Shown here one piece after another: positions 1,436-45,636 of a stretch of 45,636 bases of DNA (positions are counted from its first letter, which is position 1; every line of letters starts with the position of its first letter). The position numbers and the translations under genes are program-made. Location of the stretch: contig JAMPGL010000033.1 in assembly GCA_023663945.1 (NCBI GenBank), positions 1 to 45,636 on the forward strand, in the 5' to 3' direction. Source of the DNA: Lachnospiraceae bacterium. Lineage in GTDB: Bacteria; Bacillota; Clostridia; Lachnospirales; Lachnospiraceae. Under the pieces are notes generated by a model, which did no database searches, was not told the origin of the DNA, and saw nothing but the letters and a program-made list of their open reading frames with translations.

Positions 1436-2248
1436 CTATATGGATAATTGGAACGGCAGAATCATCTGATAACTGCCCTTTCCTGACACGTTGCCTTTAA
1501 ACACAGCTATAATCACTTTTTCAAATTGTCTCTCCCCCGTACTCTCTATCACGGTCATCTCGTCAATCTCATATCCTTCTAAGAGACCTCTCTCCTTTCC
1601 GATGCTGTGATAGGGAATGATTTTATATTTTTCCGGTCTCATCCACCGTTTCATGTTTTCCCACACTTTCTCGTCAAGCACGGCTACCGGCTTATGGCTC
1701 ACCGGGTCTGACAGTCCGTTTCCGGTGTCAATCAGAGCTTTGACTTTCACCGGCTTTGCATCATCGCCCGCTATCACCACCGTGCAAAAACAGTTTTTCC
1801 TATTTTGTTCCCATCTTGCAATTCCTCCCGCGCAGAGCGCATATCCTGCAAATCCCAGCAATAACAGGAGCGGAAGCATATTTTCGTGCTTACCTAAAAA
1901 GGGGATTTTCCTTTTCAGAAAGAGCATGAACCCTCCCATTAAAAAGGAAAAGAAGTAGAGATACCCCATGATCCGGAACAGCTCTGCAAATCTTTTCGTC
2001 CGAAAGGTAATCTTTATCATCAGCATTCCCACCGGAAGCATTCCAAACAGCACTTTCGCTCCGTAGGACGCCCCCGGAATGCACAAAACCATGCAATATC
2101 CCAATGCCCCCGCCGTGCTTCCCGCCAAAATTGCCGGATATGTGGCAGTCCTTCCCAGAACTTTTGCGGTCAGCTTAAGCAGATACAGATCCATAACAAG
2201 ATTCAGTAAAAAGACACTATCGATATAGATGGTATTTGGCGTTTGCAC
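1436..2248 (-). CDS. spoIIGA: sigma-E processing peptidase SpoIIGA
   Basis: Membrane aspartic protease that cleaves pro-sigma-E in the mother cell after septation. The N-terminal half has about five hydrophobic segments starting at IYIDSVFLLNLVMDLYLL; the C-terminal half carries the D-T-G aspartyl protease motif in KALIDTGNGLSDP (about residue 174). I place the start at GTG 2248. A GGAGGTG ribosome site lies upstream of it (spacing about 14, somewhat long), the B. subtilis protein begins two residues before the same I-Y-(I/L)-D motif, and the predicted transcription start leaves only about 10 bases before the alternative ATG at 2269, which has no Shine-Dalgarno. It forms a two-gene operon with sigE, separated by about 33 bases from the chosen sigE start. 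Confidence 0.93.
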   Translation of the reverse strand: MQTPNTIYIDSVFLLNLVMDLYLLKLTAKVLGRTATYPAILAGSTAGALGYCMVLCIPGASYGAKVLFGMLPVGMLMIKITFRTKRFAELFRIMGYLYFFSFLMGGFMLFLKRKIPFLGKHENMLPLLLLLGFAGYALCAGGIARWEQNRKNCFCTVVIAGDDAKPVKVKALIDTGNGLSDPVSHKPVAVLDEKVWENMKRWMRPEKYKIIPYHSIGKERGLLEGYEIDEMTVIESTGERQFEKVIIAVFKGNVSGKGSYQMILPFQLSI

Positions 2249-2286
2249 CTTACAGCATTTCACCTCCATTTCTTATGTACCAGTTC

Positions 2287-2330
2287 ATTATAAACATTAA
2301 GGTCTTCATAATTTGTCAAAACAGTGTCAA
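2287..2330 (-). promoter_or_regulatory. spoIIG-type promoter with two Spo0A-box-like repeats
   Basis: Read on the minus strand, TTTGACA occurs twice, 11 bases apart (cores at 2325-2330 and 2314-2319), and a perfect TATAAT lies at 2287-2292. The spacing between the proximal TTGACA and TATAAT is 21 bp. In B. subtilis, spoIIG has consensus -35 and -10 elements held unusually far apart (about 22 bp) and is switched on by Spo0A~P bound at adjacent 0A boxes. The repeats here differ from the TTCGACA consensus by one base. The sequence elements are seen; control by Spo0A is inferred. Confidence 0.75.
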
Positions 2331-2415
2331 AAAAAGGTGTCATCCATCGCCTTTTTCGTACAAACCGGACCTTTCTTATATTCTTCTTTCAGAAAAAATT
2401 TTCTAAAATAATGCA

Positions 2416-2459
2416 AAAATCCTGCAAACAGGACTTCTTTTGCCCTCTTGCAGGATTTT
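2416..2459 (-). terminator. intrinsic terminator after the M18 aminopeptidase gene
   Basis: A 12-bp perfect stem (AAAATCCTGCAA with TTGCAGGATTTT) encloses a 20-base loop and, read on the minus strand, runs into TTTTTGCATTATTTT. It lies 23 bases past the aminopeptidase stop codon and separates that gene from the spoIIG promoter. Confidence 0.8.
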
Positions 2460-2481
2460 AAGATTTAAAAATAGTATGAAA

Positions 2482-3753
2482 TTATTTATTAAAAAACACC
2501 TTTAACGCCCTGACCAGATAGTCCACATCTTTGCTTCCCGCCGTTTCCACTGCGGAATGCATGGCAAGCTGGGGAAGTCCGATATCAACAGCTGGAACCG
2601 CCGTCTGCGCCATAGATATATTTCCAAGGGTGGAACCGCCCGGAATGTCCGAACGGTTATGATAGCTTTGACAGGGCACTCCTGCCTCCTTGCAGATGGC
2701 TCTCATCACTGCATCGGTATACCCGTCCGTGGTGTATTTTTGTCCTCCGTGATATTTAATCACAATTCCGCCGTTTAAAACCGGCTTGTTGGTCAAATCC
2801 GCCTTTTCCGGATGGCCAGGGTGAAGCGCATGGGCGTTATCCGCAGAAATCATAAAGCTGTCCGCAATCAGCCTCAGATAGTCCTCCCCCGTGCAGGACA
2901 AAGCTTCCCCAATCCTCATAAGGGTATCCTTCAAAAAGGTGGACGCCGCCCCTGCTCTGGTCAGGCTTCCCACCTCTTCATTATTAAATACGGCGCAGAC
3001 CGCTCCGTATTTGACCGGAACCGCGGCAAGAACCGCTTCCATGGAAGCATAGACGCATTCCAGATCATCTAACCTTGGAGAAATCATTAATTCATCCGAA
3101 GGACCTGCCAGCCTGCCCTTTTCCCTTACATAAAGGTACAAGTCGCTCCCTAAGATTTCCTCCTCCTCCCTTCCGGTCTGGCGGGCGATTTCCCTAAACA
3201 GAAATCCTTTTGCCCCCGTATCTCCCATCAGGGGCAGCAGGTCAATCTGGGGATTGTATTCCGTTCCTTTATTTATATCCCGGTTCATATGGATAGCAAG
3301 GCTTGGAATCACGCAGAGGTCTCTGTCAATATTTACATTCACGCAGACAGGCTCCTCTTCTCCGCACAGCACCACCCGTCCCGCCACGGACAGGCTCCTG
3401 TCAAACCAAGTGGAATAAATCATGCCTCCGTAAATTTCCGTATTTAAACGAAGATAATGATTTTCCGTCAAAAGCTCCGGGCTGGTTTTCAGCTTAAAGC
3501 AGGGGGAATCGCTGTGGGACGCCGCAATATGAAATCCCTGCATCTGCTCCTTAGGCAGCCGGAATGCTATGATAGAAGAATCATTTCTTTTTACATAGTA
3601 GCTGTTTCCCCTTTGAAGCTTCCACCGCTCCCTCTCCTTAAGAAGCTGAAATCCCACTTCCGCAAATCTCTTTTCCGCCGCCTCCACGGCATGGTAACAG
3701 CTTACGCTCTCTCCGATAAAATTCAGGCACTTCTGCGCCGTAGTTTCCTTCAT
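2482..3753 (-). CDS. M18 family aminopeptidase
   Basis: Zinc-dependent cytoplasmic aminopeptidase of family M18, which removes N-terminal (often acidic) residues from peptides. At 423 residues it is the usual bacterial length. Metal ligands are recognisable: H80 and D82 in AASHSDSPCFK, the NNEEVGS catalytic glutamate block, and the late D-N-A-H-A-LHPGHPEK segment. ATG 3753 is preceded by GGAAGGAG. It lies 79 bases downstream of ftsZ, with a hairpin between them, and ends at a terminator before the spoIIG promoter. It could be read through from ftsZ or have its own promoter; I see no clear one. Family assignment is firm, the exact substrate preference is not. Confidence 0.92.
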   Translation of the reverse strand: MKETTAQKCLNFIGESVSCYHAVEAAEKRFAEVGFQLLKERERWKLQRGNSYYVKRNDSSIIAFRLPKEQMQGFHIAASHSDSPCFKLKTSPELLTENHYLRLNTEIYGGMIYSTWFDRSLSVAGRVVLCGEEEPVCVNVNIDRDLCVIPSLAIHMNRDINKGTEYNPQIDLLPLMGDTGAKGFLFREIARQTGREEEEILGSDLYLYVREKGRLAGPSDELMISPRLDDLECVYASMEAVLAAVPVKYGAVCAVFNNEEVGSLTRAGAASTFLKDTLMRIGEALSCTGEDYLRLIADSFMISADNAHALHPGHPEKADLTNKPVLNGGIVIKYHGGQKYTTDGYTDAVMRAICKEAGVPCQSYHNRSDIPGGSTLGNISMAQTAVPAVDIGLPQLAMHSAVETAGSKDVDYLVRALKVFFNK

Positions 3754-3783
3754 ACTTCCATTCTCCTTCCATGAGTCAGCAAA

Positions 3784-3809
3784 GGCTGTACACCTTATGG
3801 TATACAGCC
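3784..3809 (-). terminator. hairpin between ftsZ and the M18 aminopeptidase gene
   Basis: An 11-base inverted repeat with one mismatch (GGCTGTACACC and GGTATACAGCC) around loop TTAT. On the minus strand it is followed only by TTTGCTG, so it is at best a weak terminator or an RNA-processing hairpin in the ftsZ-aminopeptidase gap. Confidence 0.5.
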
Positions 3810-3832
3810 CTATGTTAAATGATACATAAAAT

Positions 3833-5044
3833 TTACTTTCTTTGAAGAAAATCCGGAATCTTAAGGGGCTTGTCCGCTACATTGCTCCGCAGATCGCCCG
3901 GACTGGTAAGCGTGGACACCGGTCTCGGCGGAATTGCTGTCACCGGAGGCTGAACGGCTCTTCCGGGAATCCCGTTTACGCCCTCCCCTGCTCCCATACC
4001 GGAGGGTCTGAGATTGATGTTCGGCGTTACCGGCTTCACATACTTATTTGCAAATGTTCCATATCCTGAGATAGGCTTATTAGTAGGAATCGTTGCATCC
4101 TCCAAGCCTGTAGCGATAACGGTAATGGAACACATATCACTCTTGGACTCATCAAACATAGCGCCGAAGATAATGTTCACATCGTCTCCTGCTAATTCCT
4201 GCACATAGCTTGCCGCATCGGAAGCATCCGCCAAGGTAATATCGCCGGATACATTGATGATAACATGGGTTGCACCGGAAATATTGGTCTCCAAAAGGGG
4301 ACTTTCCACCGCCATCTTGACCGCTTCGCTTGCCTTGTCGTCTCCCTTGCCGGTTCCGATACCGATATGCGCAATGCCCTTATCCTTCATGACAGTCTGT
4401 ACATCCGCGAAGTCAAGGTTAATAACCGCAGGCACATTAATCAAGTCCGTGATACCCTGAACAGCCTGTTGAAGCACTTCATCTGCTTTCTTAAGGGCAT
4501 CCGGCATGGTTGTCCGTCTGTCAACAATCTCTAATAATTTATCATTGGGAATAACAATTAAGGTGTCAACATTGTCCTTAATCCGTTCAATACCGCTGAT
4601 TGCATTGATCATGCGGGCTTTCGCCTCAAAACGGAAAGGTTTGGTCACTACGCCTACCGTCAGTATGCCCATATCCTTCGCCAGCTTCGCAACCACCGGA
4701 GCCGCTCCGGTTCCGGTTCCGCCGCCCATGCCGCAGGTGACAAACACCATATCAGCACCCTTTAAAGCCGCCGCGATCTCTTCGCTGCTCTCCTCGGCCG
4801 CCTTCTCACCGATTTCAGGCTTTGCCCCGGCTCCAAGTCCCTTGGTAAGCTTCTCGCCAATCTGTAAAAGCTTCGGCGCCCGGCATAGCTGCAATGCCTG
4901 CTTATCCGTATTGATGCCGATAAACTCTACCCCTGTTATATTCTCATCCACCATTCTATTAACAGCGTTGTTACCTGCTCCTCCTACACCGATCACGATG
5001 ATCTTAGCAGCAGATTCAGCGTCGTTTGTTTTAATTTCCAGCAA
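3833..5044 (-). CDS. ftsZ: cell division GTPase FtsZ
   Basis: Tubulin-like GTPase that polymerises into the division ring. The glycine-rich [13 protein letters not shown] loop and the tubulin signature GGGTGTG (about residues 107-113) are intact. A variable proline/glycine-rich linker follows the globular domain, and the protein ends in a conserved peptide, KIPDFLQRK, which in the family binds membrane anchors. 403 residues is normal. The start is TTG at 5044, with AGGAGG eight bases upstream. It is the last division gene of the cluster, separated from ftsQ by 156 bases holding its own promoter. ftsA is not adjacent. Confidence 0.97.
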
Positions 5045-41385: not shown

Positions 41386-42720
41386 TTACCCCGTCTCTTC
41401 GCCCTCTGCCGTTTCCTCATCCGGCTCCCTGCCGTCTTCCGCCATCTCATCAGCCTGCTCTTCCTCTGCATCCGGCTCTTCCGGCAGAATCACTAATACC
41501 TTGACAATCCGGTTTTGGCTGACCTCTTTTGCCTGCAGAATAATTCCCTGCGGCGTGGAGATCATCTCTCCCTCCTCCGGCAGACGGTCAATGGTCTCGA
41601 TGATAAGCCCTCCGATGGAGTCATAATCCTCCGATTCAAACTCCGTCCCCAGCTCATCATTTATATCGTTTAACTTCATGCTTCCTTCCACAAGGTAAGT
41701 CCGTTCCTCTACCTCCTGAATCAGCTCCTCCTCGTCCGCATCATACTCGTCCCGGATTTCTCCCACGATTTCCTCCAGCAGATCTTCTAAGGTGATCATG
41801 CCCACTGTTGCGCCGTACTCATTTAGGACAAAGGACACGTTGGCACACTTTTCACGCATCTCCATCAACAGGTCTGCCGTCTTTTTAAACTCATAAGTGT
41901 AATATGCCTGACGGATAATATCCGTGATTTTAAAGTTTTCCTTATCCTCCACCAGAATAAAGTCCTTGATGTTGATCATTCCCACCACATTGTCCTTATC
42001 CCCGCTGTAAACAGGAATCCTGGTGTACATGCATTCCTTGAACAGCGCGAGAACCTCCTCGTAGGCGGCATCCTCGTCAATCACCGCCATATCGATCCGG
42101 GGGATCATTACATCCTTTGCCACGGCATCGCCAAAATCAAACACGTTGTATATCATTTCCCGCTCTTCCGACTCGATGACCCCATCCTCGTGGCTTACCT
42201 CCACATAAGTCCGAAGCTCCGTCTCCGTCATAGCTGTCCGTCGGTTCAAATCAATATGTAACAGCTTCATAATCCCGTTTGCCAGCTTATCAATAATAAA
42301 GATTACCGGCGTGAGAACCTTGACCAGAACCGAAATAACCGCCGCATAGCCAAGCGCCAGCTTTTCCGAATAGCCCATAGCCGCATTTTTGGGGACAATC
42401 TCGCCAAATATGAGAATCACCACCGTCAGAATGCCGGTTGCAATCCCCACCGGAACGCTGACCTTAAGGGCAAGCGTGGTTGCAAGGGAAGACGCATACA
42501 GATTGACAATGTTGTTGCCTATCAGGATAGCGCTGAGCATCTTGCCATACCTCTCAAGCACATCGAGAGCCTTCTGCGCCTTTTTATTGCCCTCGTCGGC
42601 AAGTGCCTTAAGCCTTACCCGGTTGACCGTCGTAAGCGACGTTTCCGCAGAGGAAAAAAAAGCAGACAACATCACCAGAATCAATAAAGCAAACAATTGC
42701 ATGACACCATCGGTATCCAA
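41386..42720 (-). CDS. CNNM/HlyC-CorC family transporter-like protein (hemolysin family)
   Basis: A 444-residue membrane protein: DUF21/CNNM transmembrane domain (about 1-190) with ADEGNKKAQKALDVLERYGKML and SAILIGNNIVN, two CBS domains (about 205-330) around MIPRIDMAVIDEDAAYEEVL and VSFVLNEYGATVGMITLEDLLEEIVGEI, and a CorC/HlyC C-terminal domain followed by an acidic tail. Homologues take part in Mg2+ transport or efflux; haemolysis is a historical name. The start is TTG 42720, with AGGAG upstream; ATG 42702 lacks a ribosome site. It reads away from TIGR04086, with a repeat-rich spacer between them. Confidence 0.92.
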   Translation of the reverse strand: MDTDGVMQLFALLILVMLSAFFSSAETSLTTVNRVRLKALADEGNKKAQKALDVLERYGKMLSAILIGNNIVNLYASSLATTLALKVSVPVGIATGILTVVILIFGEIVPKNAAMGYSEKLALGYAAVISVLVKVLTPVIFIIDKLANGIMKLLHIDLNRRTAMTETELRTYVEVSHEDGVIESEEREMIYNVFDFGDAVAKDVMIPRIDMAVIDEDAAYEEVLALFKECMYTRIPVYSGDKDNVVGMINIKDFILVEDKENFKITDIIRQAYYTYEFKKTADLLMEMREKCANVSFVLNEYGATVGMITLEDLLEEIVGEIRDEYDADEEELIQEVEERTYLVEGSMKLNDINDELGTEFESEDYDSIGGLIIETIDRLPEEGEMISTPQGIILQAKEVSQNRIVKVLVILPEEPDAEEEQADEMAEDGREPDEETAEGEETG

Positions 42721-42767
42721 ATTAAAATCACTCCTCTATTTCAATTTCTGTCCGCAATGCCGCCAGC

Positions 42768-42864
42768 AGAATATTCTACCCAATAGGATATCCTATCTAA
42801 TTAGGATATTCTATCTAATCATGGTAAAATATCCATCCGAATAATATATACATCTGGATATTCA
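42768..42864. promoter_or_regulatory. array of GGATATTC-type dyads upstream of the CNNM gene
   Basis: AGAATATTCT (42768-42777), AGGATATCCT (42785-42794), AGGATATTCT (42803-42812), AAAATATCCA (about 42825-42834) and TGGATATTCA (42855-42864) are five 10-base dyads. The first three are 17-18 bp apart. Two of the steps also form an 18-bp tandem repeat (42784-42801 and 42802-42819). The position, just upstream of the CNNM coding region, suggests an operator for a dimeric regulator. I do not recognise the regulator. Confidence 0.55.
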
Positions 42865-42929
42865 TAGGGACAGTTTATGGAAATATTACAATATCGGGCA
42901 TTCTCTGTCAAGTTCGGACATATGATTAA

Positions 42930-43034
42930 TTATAGTAAACGACATAACTAATTGCTCATTCCGGCTCTTGCAAAAGCCATATGTGCAAGCTTTTACAAGG
43001 TCAGAATGGCAATTATTAATGTCGTTAACTATAA
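42930..43034. mobile_element. MITE-like palindromic element, about 105 bp
   Basis: The two ends (TTATAGTAAACGACAT and ATGTCGTTAACTATAA) are near-perfect inverted repeats, and the similarity continues inward so that almost the whole 105 bases can fold into one long imperfect hairpin. Inner complementary words are CTAATTGCTCATTC against GAATGGCAATTA and GCAAAAGCCATATG/CATATG-like arms. It has no coding capacity. It fits a non-autonomous miniature element or a REP-type palindrome. Its right end is 43 bases from the TIGR04086 start. Confidence 0.65.
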
Positions 43035-43076
43035 AAAAAGAGTATCTAAATTTAAAAACAATGAACGGAGGCAGCC

Positions 43077-43451
43077 ATGCCAAGTAAAATCAATTTAAGC
43101 TCACGCCTTACCTTTATACTCAAATGCCTGCTTATTTCCTATCTTCTCACCACCGGCTTTCTTCTCCTGCTTGCCCTGATGCTGTACCGTTTCGGGCTTT
43201 CAGAGAAAATTGTGTCCATCTGCATCATTGCCATCTACATAATCGTAACCTTTCTTGCCGGATTCTGGGCAGGCAGGCGGGAAGGAAGCCGGAAATTTTT
43301 GTGGGGACTGCTCATGGGAGGCATGTACTTTTTAATCTTGATTCTGGTTTCTCTGGTGGTAAACCACGGAGTCTCCTCTCTGGGCGGAAACTTCTTCACC
43401 GTGCTTCTTTTATGCACTGGAAGCGGAATGCTGGGCGGAATGGTCAGCTGA
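43077..43451 (+). CDS. TIGR04086 family membrane protein
   Basis: A 124-residue protein with four predicted membrane helices, a basic N-terminus and the conserved GFWAGRREGSRKFLWGLLMGGMYFLILILV middle region with a TGSGMLGGMVS end, matching the TIGR04086 family. This family is found in Clostridia, often close to SCIFF genes, and its function is unknown. ATG 43077 has CGGAGG five bases upstream. It is monocistronic, ending at a strong terminator. Confidence 0.9.
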   Translation: MPSKINLSSRLTFILKCLLISYLLTTGFLLLLALMLYRFGLSEKIVSICIIAIYIIVTFLAGFWAGRREGSRKFLWGLLMGGMYFLILILVSLVVNHGVSSLGGNFFTVLLLCTGSGMLGGMVS

Positions 43452-43495
43452 TGTGACCGTTCTTTTCGGAACAGCCGGTTAATCTGACCGATGAG

Positions 43496-43523
43496 AAAAG
43501 CGCAGACCGAAATCTGCGCTTTT
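43496..43523. terminator. terminator after the TIGR04086 gene
   Basis: AAAAGCGCAGA and TCTGCGCTTTT form an 11-bp perfect stem with a 6-base loop, with A-run and T-run on the two sides. It lies between the convergent TIGR04086 and XRE regulator genes and can serve both. Confidence 0.85.
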
Positions 43524-43558
43524 ACCTATGTTCCAATCAATGCTCTATTTTAAATTGC

Positions 43559-43939
43559 TTATTCTTCAGTTTTATCCTTGCTGTCCTTCCGTTCCCGCAC
43601 CTTATTTCCCGCTACGGTGCATATCTCCTGTACTGATTTCAAAATAGCCTCCACATGGGTAAGCTGTTCCGGACTGAAGAATTCCAAACACTTTGCCGTT
43701 GCCCCGGATAATTTACTGCTGTCCTCTCCTGTGACCAAATAATCGGTGCTGACAGACAACGCTTTCGATATTTTATAAAGAATTTCTACTGAAAAGCCTT
43801 TCTTGCCAACCTCGATCTCATACAAAAATTTTGCAGAGATACGAATCTTTTCAGCAAACGCATCTCTCGTGTAACTGTTTGCTTCGCGTAATGTGCGGAT
43901 TCTTAATCCGATTTCTGAGTATGGTATTTCATAAGCCAT
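43559..43939 (-). CDS. XRE-family helix-turn-helix regulator
   Basis: A 126-residue DNA-binding protein. Residues about 9-65 form a Cro/C1-type helix-turn-helix (IGLRIRTLREANSYTRDAFAEKIRISAKFLYEIEVGKKGFSVEILYKISKALSVSTDYL), followed by a short C-terminal region with no sensor domain I recognise. ATG 43939 has AGGAGG about eight bases upstream. It is transcribed away from agrB, with a 282-base spacer that holds paired operator-like repeats, so it may repress or be co-regulated with the Agr genes. It is the only regulator gene inside the window near agrBD; an AgrA-type regulator would have to lie beyond the right edge. Confidence 0.85.
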   Translation of the reverse strand: MAYEIPYSEIGLRIRTLREANSYTRDAFAEKIRISAKFLYEIEVGKKGFSVEILYKISKALSVSTDYLVTGEDSSKLSGATAKCLEFFSPEQLTHVEAILKSVQEICTVAGNKVRERKDSKDKTEE

Positions 43940-44039
43940 ATGCTCTTCCTCCTGTTCTGTGCCTGTTTAGCAGGCGCCCTTTGGGCTCCTACAGTTGTCC
44001 TTTCTATTATGACACATTTTCAAGCGGATTTCTATACGC

Positions 44040-44137
44040 TTTACCGAATGGCGTTTTTCCTTTACTAAGCGGAAAAGAAGATTCATTTTCTTTGCCATTT
44101 TTTCCGTTCGGTAAGAAAAACCTGACGTTTAGTAAAG
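44040..44137. promoter_or_regulatory. four half-site operator array, LytTR-like, between the XRE gene and agrB
   Basis: On the plus strand TCCGTTCGG (44103-44111) and GACGTTTAG (44124-44132) fit the LytTR half-site pattern (T/A)(A/C)(C/A)GTTN(A/G)(T/G), fully and with one mismatch. Their GTT cores are 21 bp apart. On the minus strand the related words CCGCTTAGTAAAG (from 44072 leftward) and CCATTCGGTAAAG (from 44051 leftward) are also 21 bp apart. Two pairs thus point in opposite directions, one toward agrB and one toward the XRE gene. AgrA-type regulators bind such direct repeats at this spacing. Confidence 0.7.
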
Positions 44138-44139
44138 TT

Positions 44140-44170
44140 TTGGCTTAAGAACAAAAATTCATTTTATAAT
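44140..44170 (+). promoter_or_regulatory. agrBD promoter
   Basis: A perfect TATAAT lies at 44165-44170. The best -35-like word, TTGGCT (44140-44145), is 19 bp upstream, too far and too poor for strong unaided activity, and directly follows the operator half-site at 44124-44132. This is the layout of an activator-dependent promoter. Confidence 0.6.
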
Positions 44171-44221
44171 GAACAAGACTCAAGCGTTTCCAAAAAATAC
44201 TTATTTACAGGAGAATCAACT

Positions 44222-44797
44222 ATGCGTGAATTTTTAAAGACACAATACCAGTTCAGCGATTTTCAGGTTGCACAGCTTAATTATTTAGGCAAAACACTTG
44301 CATCTGAATTTAGCAAATTGTTTATCATGGGAATTATCTTCAAGGACATTCTGAGCGTTTACGCCTTTGCCGTAGTCATTATGATGCTGCTTCGCTCCTC
44401 CACCGGAGGACTGCACTGCCGGAAATATATTTCCTGCTTTTTCGTTACGTTTACTTATATGTTCCTGTCTCTGGCTGTCCTGCCGGCGATTCCAATCAAT
44501 AAACTGGTGCAGATGATTTTACTATTTTTCTGTATTTTGTGCAACTACTATATTGGACCGGTGACCTCTGCCGTTCACCGTCCTCTGTCCGAAAAGACCA
44601 TTCGCCGTGTCCGCGGACAAGCGTTTGTGATTATTTTCTTTTACCTTACCCTCACGTATATAACCCCGGAAAATCCTTACATTACAGCGGGATTTTGGGT
44701 GATTATATTGCACACAGCACAGCTTGTGGCTGCCAAACTATTAAAAATCATGAAAGGAGTAAATCACTATGAAAAACAAACTTATCAAATGGAGTAA
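44222..44797 (+). CDS. agrB: accessory gene regulator AgrB, peptide-processing protease
   Basis: A 191-residue membrane endopeptidase that cleaves the C-terminal tail of AgrD and closes its ring. Catalytic H65 and C72 are in SSTGGLHCRKYISCF, seven residues apart as in known AgrB; there are four to six hydrophobic spans. ATG 44222 has AGGAG eight bases upstream. The end overlaps agrD by 29 bases, which couples their translation. The regulator and sensor of a full agr system should be near; the sensor is on the opposite strand downstream. Confidence 0.95.
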   Translation: MREFLKTQYQFSDFQVAQLNYLGKTLASEFSKLFIMGIIFKDILSVYAFAVVIMMLLRSSTGGLHCRKYISCFFVTFTYMFLSLAVLPAIPINKLVQMILLFFCILCNYYIGPVTSAVHRPLSEKTIRRVRGQAFVIIFFYLTLTYITPENPYITAGFWVIILHTAQLVAAKLLKIMKGVNHYEKQTYQME

Positions 44798-44897
44798 ACC
44801 GATTCTGTCTGCATGCATCTTATTAGGCACGTGGGTAAGTTTTGGTATCACCAGCATCATCTTTTTTGGGGAATACGAATATCCTACCGAAGACTGA
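44769..44897 (+). CDS. agrD: AgrD-type cyclic autoinducer precursor, predicted serine lactone
   Basis: A 42-residue peptide: an amphipathic basic N-terminus (MKNKLIKWSKPILSACILL), a central segment, S29-I-I-F-F33, and an acidic tail GEYEYPTED. In AgrD proteins a cysteine five residues before the AgrB cleavage site forms a thiolactone; here that position is S29, and the only cysteine (C16) lies in the membrane-binding leader. A serine lactone ring is known in Staphylococcus intermedius-type pheromones. The tail with alternating Glu/Tyr and Pro fits the AgrB recognition segment. ATG 44769 has AAGGAG nine bases upstream. Identity rests on context and layout; the exact pheromone ends are inferred. 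Confidence 0.9.
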   Translation: MKNKLIKWSKPILSACILLGTWVSFGITSIIFFGEYEYPTED

Positions 44898-44940
44898 CAA
44901 AGAAAAAGAAACCCTTTCTTAAGCGGTTTCTTTTTCTTTG
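44898..44940. terminator. bidirectional terminator formed by the end of the agrC coding sequence
   Basis: CAAAGAAAAAGAAACC and GGTTTCTTTTTCTTTG form a 16-bp perfect stem with an 11-base loop directly after the agrD stop. The agrC stop codon (44919-44921, minus strand) lies in the loop and its last codons (RKEKETA) form one arm, so this terminator is partly made of coding sequence. Confidence 0.8.
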
Positions 44941-45636
44941 CGGATTGTAAAGGATAACCAGTTTTCTCCTTCAATCTCCGCATTGTCACAGACTATTTCC
45001 AACCCATATTCATCACAGATCAGCTTCACATTGTATAGTCCTAATCCCCTGCCCTCGCCCTTTTGGCTGTAACCCTTTTCCCAGAATGCGCCCAGCTCCT
45101 TATAGCTGATATAAGGGCTTTCGTTTCTGACCTCAATCCAAAACCGGTCACTCTCAATTATGGAAACATGCAGCTTGTTTCTCTCCCCGTCAGCCAGAAG
45201 CGCTTCCACCGCATTATTCATCAAATCTCCAAGTATCTCTACTATCTTGTAGCAGGGCACGCCAATCTCCAATTCCTGCACAATCACTTGATATGATACC
45301 TCAACCCCTTTTTTGTAAAACTCATTGAAACGACCATAAAGAAAACCTGCAATCACAGAATTTCCATCGGATAACAGCTTATAAAAACGATTCTCTTTCA
45401 TAACTGCATCTCCATAACTATCCAACGCGTCCGCCAGCTCCTCGTAAGTGTGATATTTCAAATGCAGGCTGTGCAGCATGCTGATATGATTATTAAACTC
45501 ATGCTGTCTCATACGAATATCGTCAATCATTCCCTTAAAAGAATCTGAATATACTTTTTGCATCCGCAGTTCTGTTTCGACCTCTTTCGCTTTTAATTTA
45601 TATTTGTTTAGCTGTCCCGATAAAGTAAATATAAAA
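44919..45636 (-). CDS. agrC: AgrC-like sensor histidine kinase, partial
   Basis: The C-terminal part of a GHKL-type sensor kinase; the reading frame is open to the window edge, so the N-terminal membrane sensor domain is missing here. The dimerisation segment holds the phospho-acceptor motif in RQHEFNNHISMLHSL, the N-box is EILGDLMNNAVEALL and the G-box GEGRGLGLYNVKLICDEYG. These match the AgrC/ComD family, which senses cyclic peptides. It reads toward agrBD on the opposite strand. The expected partner is an AgrA-like LytTR regulator further right, not visible. Confidence 0.9.
   Translation of the reverse strand, partial: FIFTLSGQLNKYKLKAKEVETELRMQKVYSDSFKGMIDDIRMRQHEFNNHISMLHSLHLKYHTYEELADALDSYGDAVMKENRFYKLLSDGNSVIAGFLYGRFNEFYKKGVEVSYQVIVQELEIGVPCYKIVEILGDLMNNAVEALLADGERNKLHVSIIESDRFWIEVRNESPYISYKELGAFWEKGYSQKGEGRGLGLYNVKLICDEYGLEIVCDNAEIEGENWLSFTIRKEKETA

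Follow-up and report, generated by a model that had tools for sequence, protein, structure and literature searches.

An Agr-type locus at the end of a Lachnospiraceae contig

We analyzed a stretch of 45,636 nucleotides of DNA from a Lachnospiraceae bacterium (the window, contig C34 of its genome), the end of which carries an Agr-type quorum sensing locus. The agrB gene (44222..44797, plus strand) encodes a membrane peptidase/cyclase that matches PF04647 (E=5.2e-19) and has intact H65 and C72, residues whose catalytic role we take from the staphylococcal enzyme. Its 3' end is overlapped by 29 nt by agrD (44769..44897, plus strand), which starts with ATG and encodes a 42-aa propeptide, MKNKLIKWSKPILSACILLGTWVSFGITSIIFFGEYEYPTED, with a serine at the position of the ring nucleophile. 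A preliminary description of this DNA had reported an open reading frame with S29 and a lone cysteine in the leader, and we recovered it exactly (plus strand, 42 aa, C16). The AGC codon of S29 lies at 44853-44855, in a GITSIIFF stretch that is followed by GEYEYPTED, and the codon of C16, the sole cysteine of the peptide, lies at 44814-44816 within the leader.

The peptide shows the layout of an AgrD, namely a basic amphipathic leader, a ring stretch and an acidic tail with a conserved proline, as judged from the alignment and, for amphipathicity, by eye only. Homologous peptides occupy the same spot beside AgrB in relatives, so the reading frame goes beyond chance. Profile searches at E<=1 returned no NCBIfam model for the peptide, TIGR04223 included, and two Pfam models, both of which scored far under their cut-offs. 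Judged by its place, layout and partner the peptide is nonetheless an AgrD, as had been proposed, and one that falls outside TIGR04223. No Rfam family reached its gathering score within 42500-45636, and a plasmid collection held no near match to 44100-45636.

The tail of staphylococcal AgrD follows the pattern |DExExP (|D-E-x-x-x-P, the bar marking the cut). The |G-E-x-x-x-P tail of the window peptide parallels it, and this similarity of pattern supports a presumed cut between F33 and G34. S29 would then be residue 5 before the cut, the predicted lactone ring S29-I30-I31-F32-F33 would be encoded at 44853..44867 (plus strand), and the C-terminal tail GEYEYPTED (44868..44894, plus strand) would be removed by AgrB. 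The G, E and P of GEYEYP are invariant in 56 of 56 aligned peptides, which largely reflects how the anchor of the alignment was built.

Upstream and divergent from agrB lies a gene for an XRE-family HTH regulator (43559..43939, minus strand; HTH_19/HTH_3). The control region between the two (43940..44221) contains elements that resemble ACYGAAT or ATTCAGT, represented in the window by ACCGAAT, TTCGGTAA and TTTAGTAAA. Such elements are conserved between the XRE gene and agrB among 21 aligned upstream regions, the window included, and they may serve as operator for an XRE or a LytTR regulator. Downstream and convergent with agrD lies a gene for a GHKL histidine kinase of the AgrC-like kind (44919..45635, minus strand; HATPase_c_5), which is cut by the end of the contig so that the window encodes its C-terminal 238 aa. 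The fragment matches residues 189-422 of the kinase at the Parablautia muri locus (L071) at 54%. A search of the window's genome recovered neither the N-terminal half of the kinase nor a close regulator.

The gene neighborhood was surveyed in 34 loci plus the window with the P. muri genes as queries, so that the query locus is itself among the 35. The query kinase is of the GHKL type and the query regulator combines Response_reg with LytTR. A recurrent order emerged: XRE(-), agrB and agrD(+), kinase(-), LytTR regulator(-), XRE(-). The upstream XRE gene was found in the same place in 33/35 loci, window and query counted, at 46-82% to the L071 gene. A kinase was present in 30/35 loci and convergent in all 30, the regulator in 27/35 and the downstream XRE gene in 22/35, several of the misses being due to contig ends. 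The closest relative (L059, 83% in AgrB) gave no kinase match in the ~950 nt before its contig ends and has another open frame there, and L090 gave none within ~1860 nt. At L069, the XRE gene is separated from a membrane gene further upstream by three genes (1487-4110), which look to us like an IS66-type insertion.

At E<=0.001, 32 of the 37 genomes examined from the window's genus had an AgrB relative. The sample of 397 family genomes gave 63 with such a relative, many of these matches being weak. The AgrD alignment found matches at E<=0.01 in 29/37 genus, 30/397 family and 14/391 class genomes; in the family and class genomes, many of the weak ones fall within long frames and probably arose by chance. 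Named genomes, when scanned, returned 34 loci, including those of Parablautia muri (strain D42-62, L071), Lachnospiraceae bacterium 10-1 (L069) and Acetatifactor, as well as one locus titled Alistipes that may be mis-binned. P. muri belongs to the Lachnospiraceae (Lachnospirales), and with such named relatives the host most likely belongs to this family too and is probably not the gut-type Clostridium it had been taken for.

Serine and cysteine share the ring position of AgrD

We determined the ring residue in a search that was anchored on AgrB (loci L001-L092 and L169-L172) and placed no condition on the residue at -5 from GE. Exactly one GE...P peptide was found in 80 of 95 AgrB loci. As many of these loci come from the same genomes, distinct peptides are the meaningful unit, and the ring position of the 58 distinct AgrDs is occupied by Ser in 50, by Cys in 8 and by no other residue. 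When AgrB was required to score >=100 bits, a peptide was found in 77/83 loci, giving 55 distinct sequences (Ser 49, Cys 6). The GE...P peptide was missing from 15/95 loci. Three of these lie at contig ends (L005, L064, L091), L092 has no such peptide within 342 nt, and L043 and L045 lack the exact anchor and carry Ser as read by eye. Nine distant AgrBs (40-72 bits; L049-L056, L058) are also without one; at two of these nine an AgrD with another type of tail was seen by eye, with Cys at L053 and Ser at L055.

An HMM-based table of 56 distinct AgrB-adjacent peptides gave a similar picture (Ser 50, Cys 6 at -5 from GE), although its model was seeded with 18 hand-picked peptides and the residue-blind count is the fairer of the two. 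The entropy of the ring column is 0.49 bits, whereas columns -6, -4 and -3 have 2.76, 2.66 and 2.02 bits; variation is also limited at -2 and -1 (F/L, 0.96 and 0.75 bits). The serine codons are AGY in 47/50 and TCN in 3/50 peptides (L028, L037, L172). Among the tree rows of the window's own genus the AgrD has Ser in 30/31, L025 being the single Cys. The alignment of close relatives that the preliminary description had proposed therefore shows mostly Ser, not a position that is clearly Cys, and S29 does sit where the ring nucleophile is expected. T28 was considered as a nucleophile and rejected; its column, -6, varies (A, T, P, V and others).

An independent set came from the TIGR04223 AgrDs. 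The 110 loci, a part of all matches that was mostly picked by score, yielded 84 distinct anchored peptides, 15 loci being unanchored and the remainder duplicates. At the matching position, 68 peptides of this genus and order sample have Cys, 15 have Ser and one has Ile, which identifies the column as that of the known ring nucleophile. The Ile row (L260) is probably mis-anchored, and three of the 15 Ser rows are ambiguous, with a Cys immediately after the Ser (L110, L222, L245). The loci without an anchor have Cys in 12 and Ser in 3 cases (L266, L268, L272) as read by eye. On these alignments, Ser recurs in place of Cys also outside the AgrD clade of the window.

Nine TIGR04223 Ser rows have no Cys in the stretch that was read (L099, L101, L208, L229, L233, L249, L261, L264, L265), and these nine represent several sequence types. 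Over both sets, the ring Ser of L034, L036, L040, L110, L222 and L245 is preceded by a Cys at a distance of one or two residues or directly followed by one (CS, CAS, SC), and the identity of the ring closer is ambiguous there.

The leader column that holds C16 in the window is Cys in 37/56 homologues, often as LLxxC, and does not look like that of a ring closer. Counted as any Cys at -33 to -8, a window that may include residues before the true start, a leader Cys accompanies 40/50 Ser rings and 3/6 Cys rings; L023, a Ser row, contains masked letters. It occurs with Cys rings and is missing from 10/50 Ser rings, which argues that the leader Cys is not a substitute for the ring residue. In three congeners (L003, L019, L004) the AgrD has no cysteine at all and could not form a thiolactone.

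The serine-type agrD is conserved and probably served by the same AgrB fold

We compared ten pairs of agrD genes and obtained dN/dS values of 0.06-0.22 in 8 of them, to which the overlap of the first codons with agrB adds constraint; the remaining 2 are saturated at synonymous sites. On the AgrB tree (58 rows), the Ser/Cys label requires a minimum of five changes, and starred branches force at least four of them. Shuffled labels needed 6.7 changes on average, and 13-15 of 500 shuffles were equally low. The tree is a quick one without bootstrap, and the placement of its five long end branches is unsure. As read from these sequences, agrD is a conserved gene that has not decayed, and its Ser, which most relatives share, genuinely characterizes a bacterial lineage.

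The AgrB His and Cys seven residues apart (H65/C72) are found in 57/57 readable rows of 58. We looked for AgrB columns that separate Ser-type from Cys-type precursors and none emerged but L5, which leans by type (Ile in 5/7 Cys types and 5/51 Ser types). Together, the constant presence of H65/C72 and the single leaning column suggest that one AgrB fold serves either nucleophile. A sequence search of solved structures with AgrB returned no match at E<=1. In a phage collection, one record (MT839371.1, 587-961) contains a partial AgrB at 36.5%; this 4658-bp "Bacteriophage sp." entry from human faeces may be a mislabelled bacterial fragment.

The window's genome has a second agr locus (L093, G000:C41:5000-9500), a Cys-type agrBD with its AgrB and a GHKL kinase nearby. 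Its TIGR04223 AgrD (G000:C41:6504-6593) resembles that of the window in the position of the ring residue relative to the tail, in the adjacent AgrB and in the nearby GHKL kinase, and differs from it by a Cys ring and a YQPKLP tail. Two ring chemistries may thus coexist in this genome. A kinase-regulator pair on another contig (L275 and L277, G000:C47:23935-25918) shows 31% and 35% identity to the P. muri genes; one AgrB search matched only the window's own AgrB.

A five-residue serine lactone is the favored product

We consider it likely, with good confidence, that this agrD encodes the precursor of a five-residue serine lactone, S-I-I-F-F with a short N-terminal tail, that would be sensed by an AgrC-like kinase. 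The ring prediction of the preliminary description thus stands as the best reading. AgrB would cut AgrD between F33 and G34 by means of H65/C72 and keep F33 as an acyl-enzyme thioester, which the hydroxyl of S29 would attack to close the five-residue lactone. Trimming of the leader would leave a tail of roughly one to four residues. The AgrC-like kinase encoded convergently with agrD, whose gene adjoins that of a LytTR response regulator in most relatives, would sense the secreted cyclic peptide. The sequences show the gene and its place, the column that admits Ser and Cys only, the intact catalytic residues of AgrB and, in relatives, the genes for kinase and regulator; where AgrB cuts, how the ester closes, and how the peptide is trimmed, secreted and sensed are inferred. 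Speaking against this reading are the fairly conserved leader cysteine column, the lack of a kinase match at L059 and L090, and the kinase half and close regulator that were not recovered from the window's genome. In S. aureus, the leader of AgrD is described as being trimmed by MroQ. Rce1-like proteins (PF02517) have eight matches in the window's genome.

AgrB might instead cleave AgrD without closing a ring, so that the signal would be a linear peptide. Serine is in general chemistry a weaker nucleophile than cysteine, which speaks for such a product, but a column that admits Ser and Cys only would lack an evident reason without closure, and lactones are described for related systems. We hold a linear signal to be decidedly unlikely. 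A serine lactone of a different ring size, made by a cut elsewhere than at F33|G34, would find precedent in clostridial AIPs with six-residue rings, which are among the published signals of a 2025 primer (PMC12312760, in excerpt). Against this, Ser or Cys stands exactly at -5 from GE in 58/58 distinct anchored peptides, which fits the usual five-residue ring, and another ring size appears very unlikely to us.

A large thiolactone closed via C16 is extremely improbable. It would make use of the one cysteine that the window AgrD has, in a leader column where cysteine is frequent among homologues, but the three cysteine-free congeners could not form it, a leader Cys coexists with a ring Cys in L025, L035 and L082, and the ring would comprise 18 residues, versus at most 9 in the table of the primer (PMC12312760). 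Finally, agrD might be a decayed copy that lost its Cys in a dead system, for which the second, Cys-type agr locus of the genome speaks. We give virtually no credence to decay in view of the Ser in 30/31 genus rows, the low dN/dS and the intact AgrB, and this objection to the serine lactone fails.

Relation to known serine-closed signals

Serine lactones had initially been regarded as confined to a few staphylococci, a view that proved too narrow. The table of the 2025 primer lists serine-closed signals for E. faecalis (GBAP, QN[SPNIFGQWM]) and C. difficile agr2 (NSA[SSWVA]) as well as for S. pseudintermedius (PMC12312760). For C. difficile agr2 the ring is a sequence in a table and not chemical proof (PMC12312760), but with its listing the claim that such a ring would be a different pheromone class in a gut-type Clostridium is not supported. 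The points made there on detection and on stability to thiols are general chemistry. According to the excerpted text of a 2013 review, which also has C. difficile agr2 in its list, the S. pseudintermedius lactone RIPT[STGFF] was biochemically determined, and Cys in place of its ring Ser lowered RNAIII expression (PMC3673130). A Listeria paper remarks, in the part available, that Ser replaces the central cysteine in some cases (PMC4916163), and for C. difficile agr in general an excerpt speaks of a supposed thiolactone (PMC7497831).

The agr system of Staphylococcus intermedius/pseudintermedius shares with the window AgrB and AgrD, a Ser ring residue and a Phe-Phe ring end, and its STGFF resembles the SIIFF of the window. 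In contrast, staphylococcal agr is arranged as agrBDCA with a divergent RNAIII transcript, according to the excerpted primer (PMC12312760), whereas agrBD of the window faces a convergent kinase and XRE regulators lie near agrBD in most of its relatives. Clostridioides difficile agr2 is likewise listed with a serine-closed five-residue ring and belongs to a gut clostridium; it differs in being a four-gene locus, and the likeness rests on the listed ring only. The Fsr system of E. faecalis produces, like the window as predicted, a lactone from a serine to the C-terminal residue, and FsrB is regarded as the counterpart of AgrB (PMC12312760), but the GBAP ring has nine residues and the fsr gene layout is different.

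A Ser-type Agr clade of Lachnospiraceae had no description among the literature matches listed, and the excerpts of PMC3673130, PMC10626739, PMC10838665, PMC10885120, PMC12312760, PMC7497831, PMC4916163 and PMC7028047 do not describe one. Serine-ring chemistry is already known and has also been predicted for a gut clostridium, and the novelty here is modest. What is new, as read from the sequences, is that Ser is the usual ring residue in a mostly Lachnospiraceae AgrD clade, that the quick tree calls for at least four switches between Ser and Cys, and that Ser also occupies the position in 15 of the 84 TIGR04223 AgrDs sampled in the order.

Implications for Agr signaling in gut Lachnospiraceae

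Taken further, serine lactones might be the default pheromone chemistry of the whole gut-Lachnospiraceae Agr clade, an extension whose chances we judge to be evenly balanced. The AgrB scaffold would then take Ser or Cys, with at least four switches between them, oxygen-ester and thioester channels would run side by side in such cells, and the ester could better withstand a gut rich in thiols and sulfide. How one AgrB fold closes rings with either nucleophile is directly testable on related members of both types, such as L025 beside L027 and L028. With the two-letter Ser/Cys column as a simple guide, signal rings could be read straight from genomes. If the extension is true, a sizeable share of the Agr signals in Lachnospirales would be lactones that are missed by thiolactone-directed chemistry.
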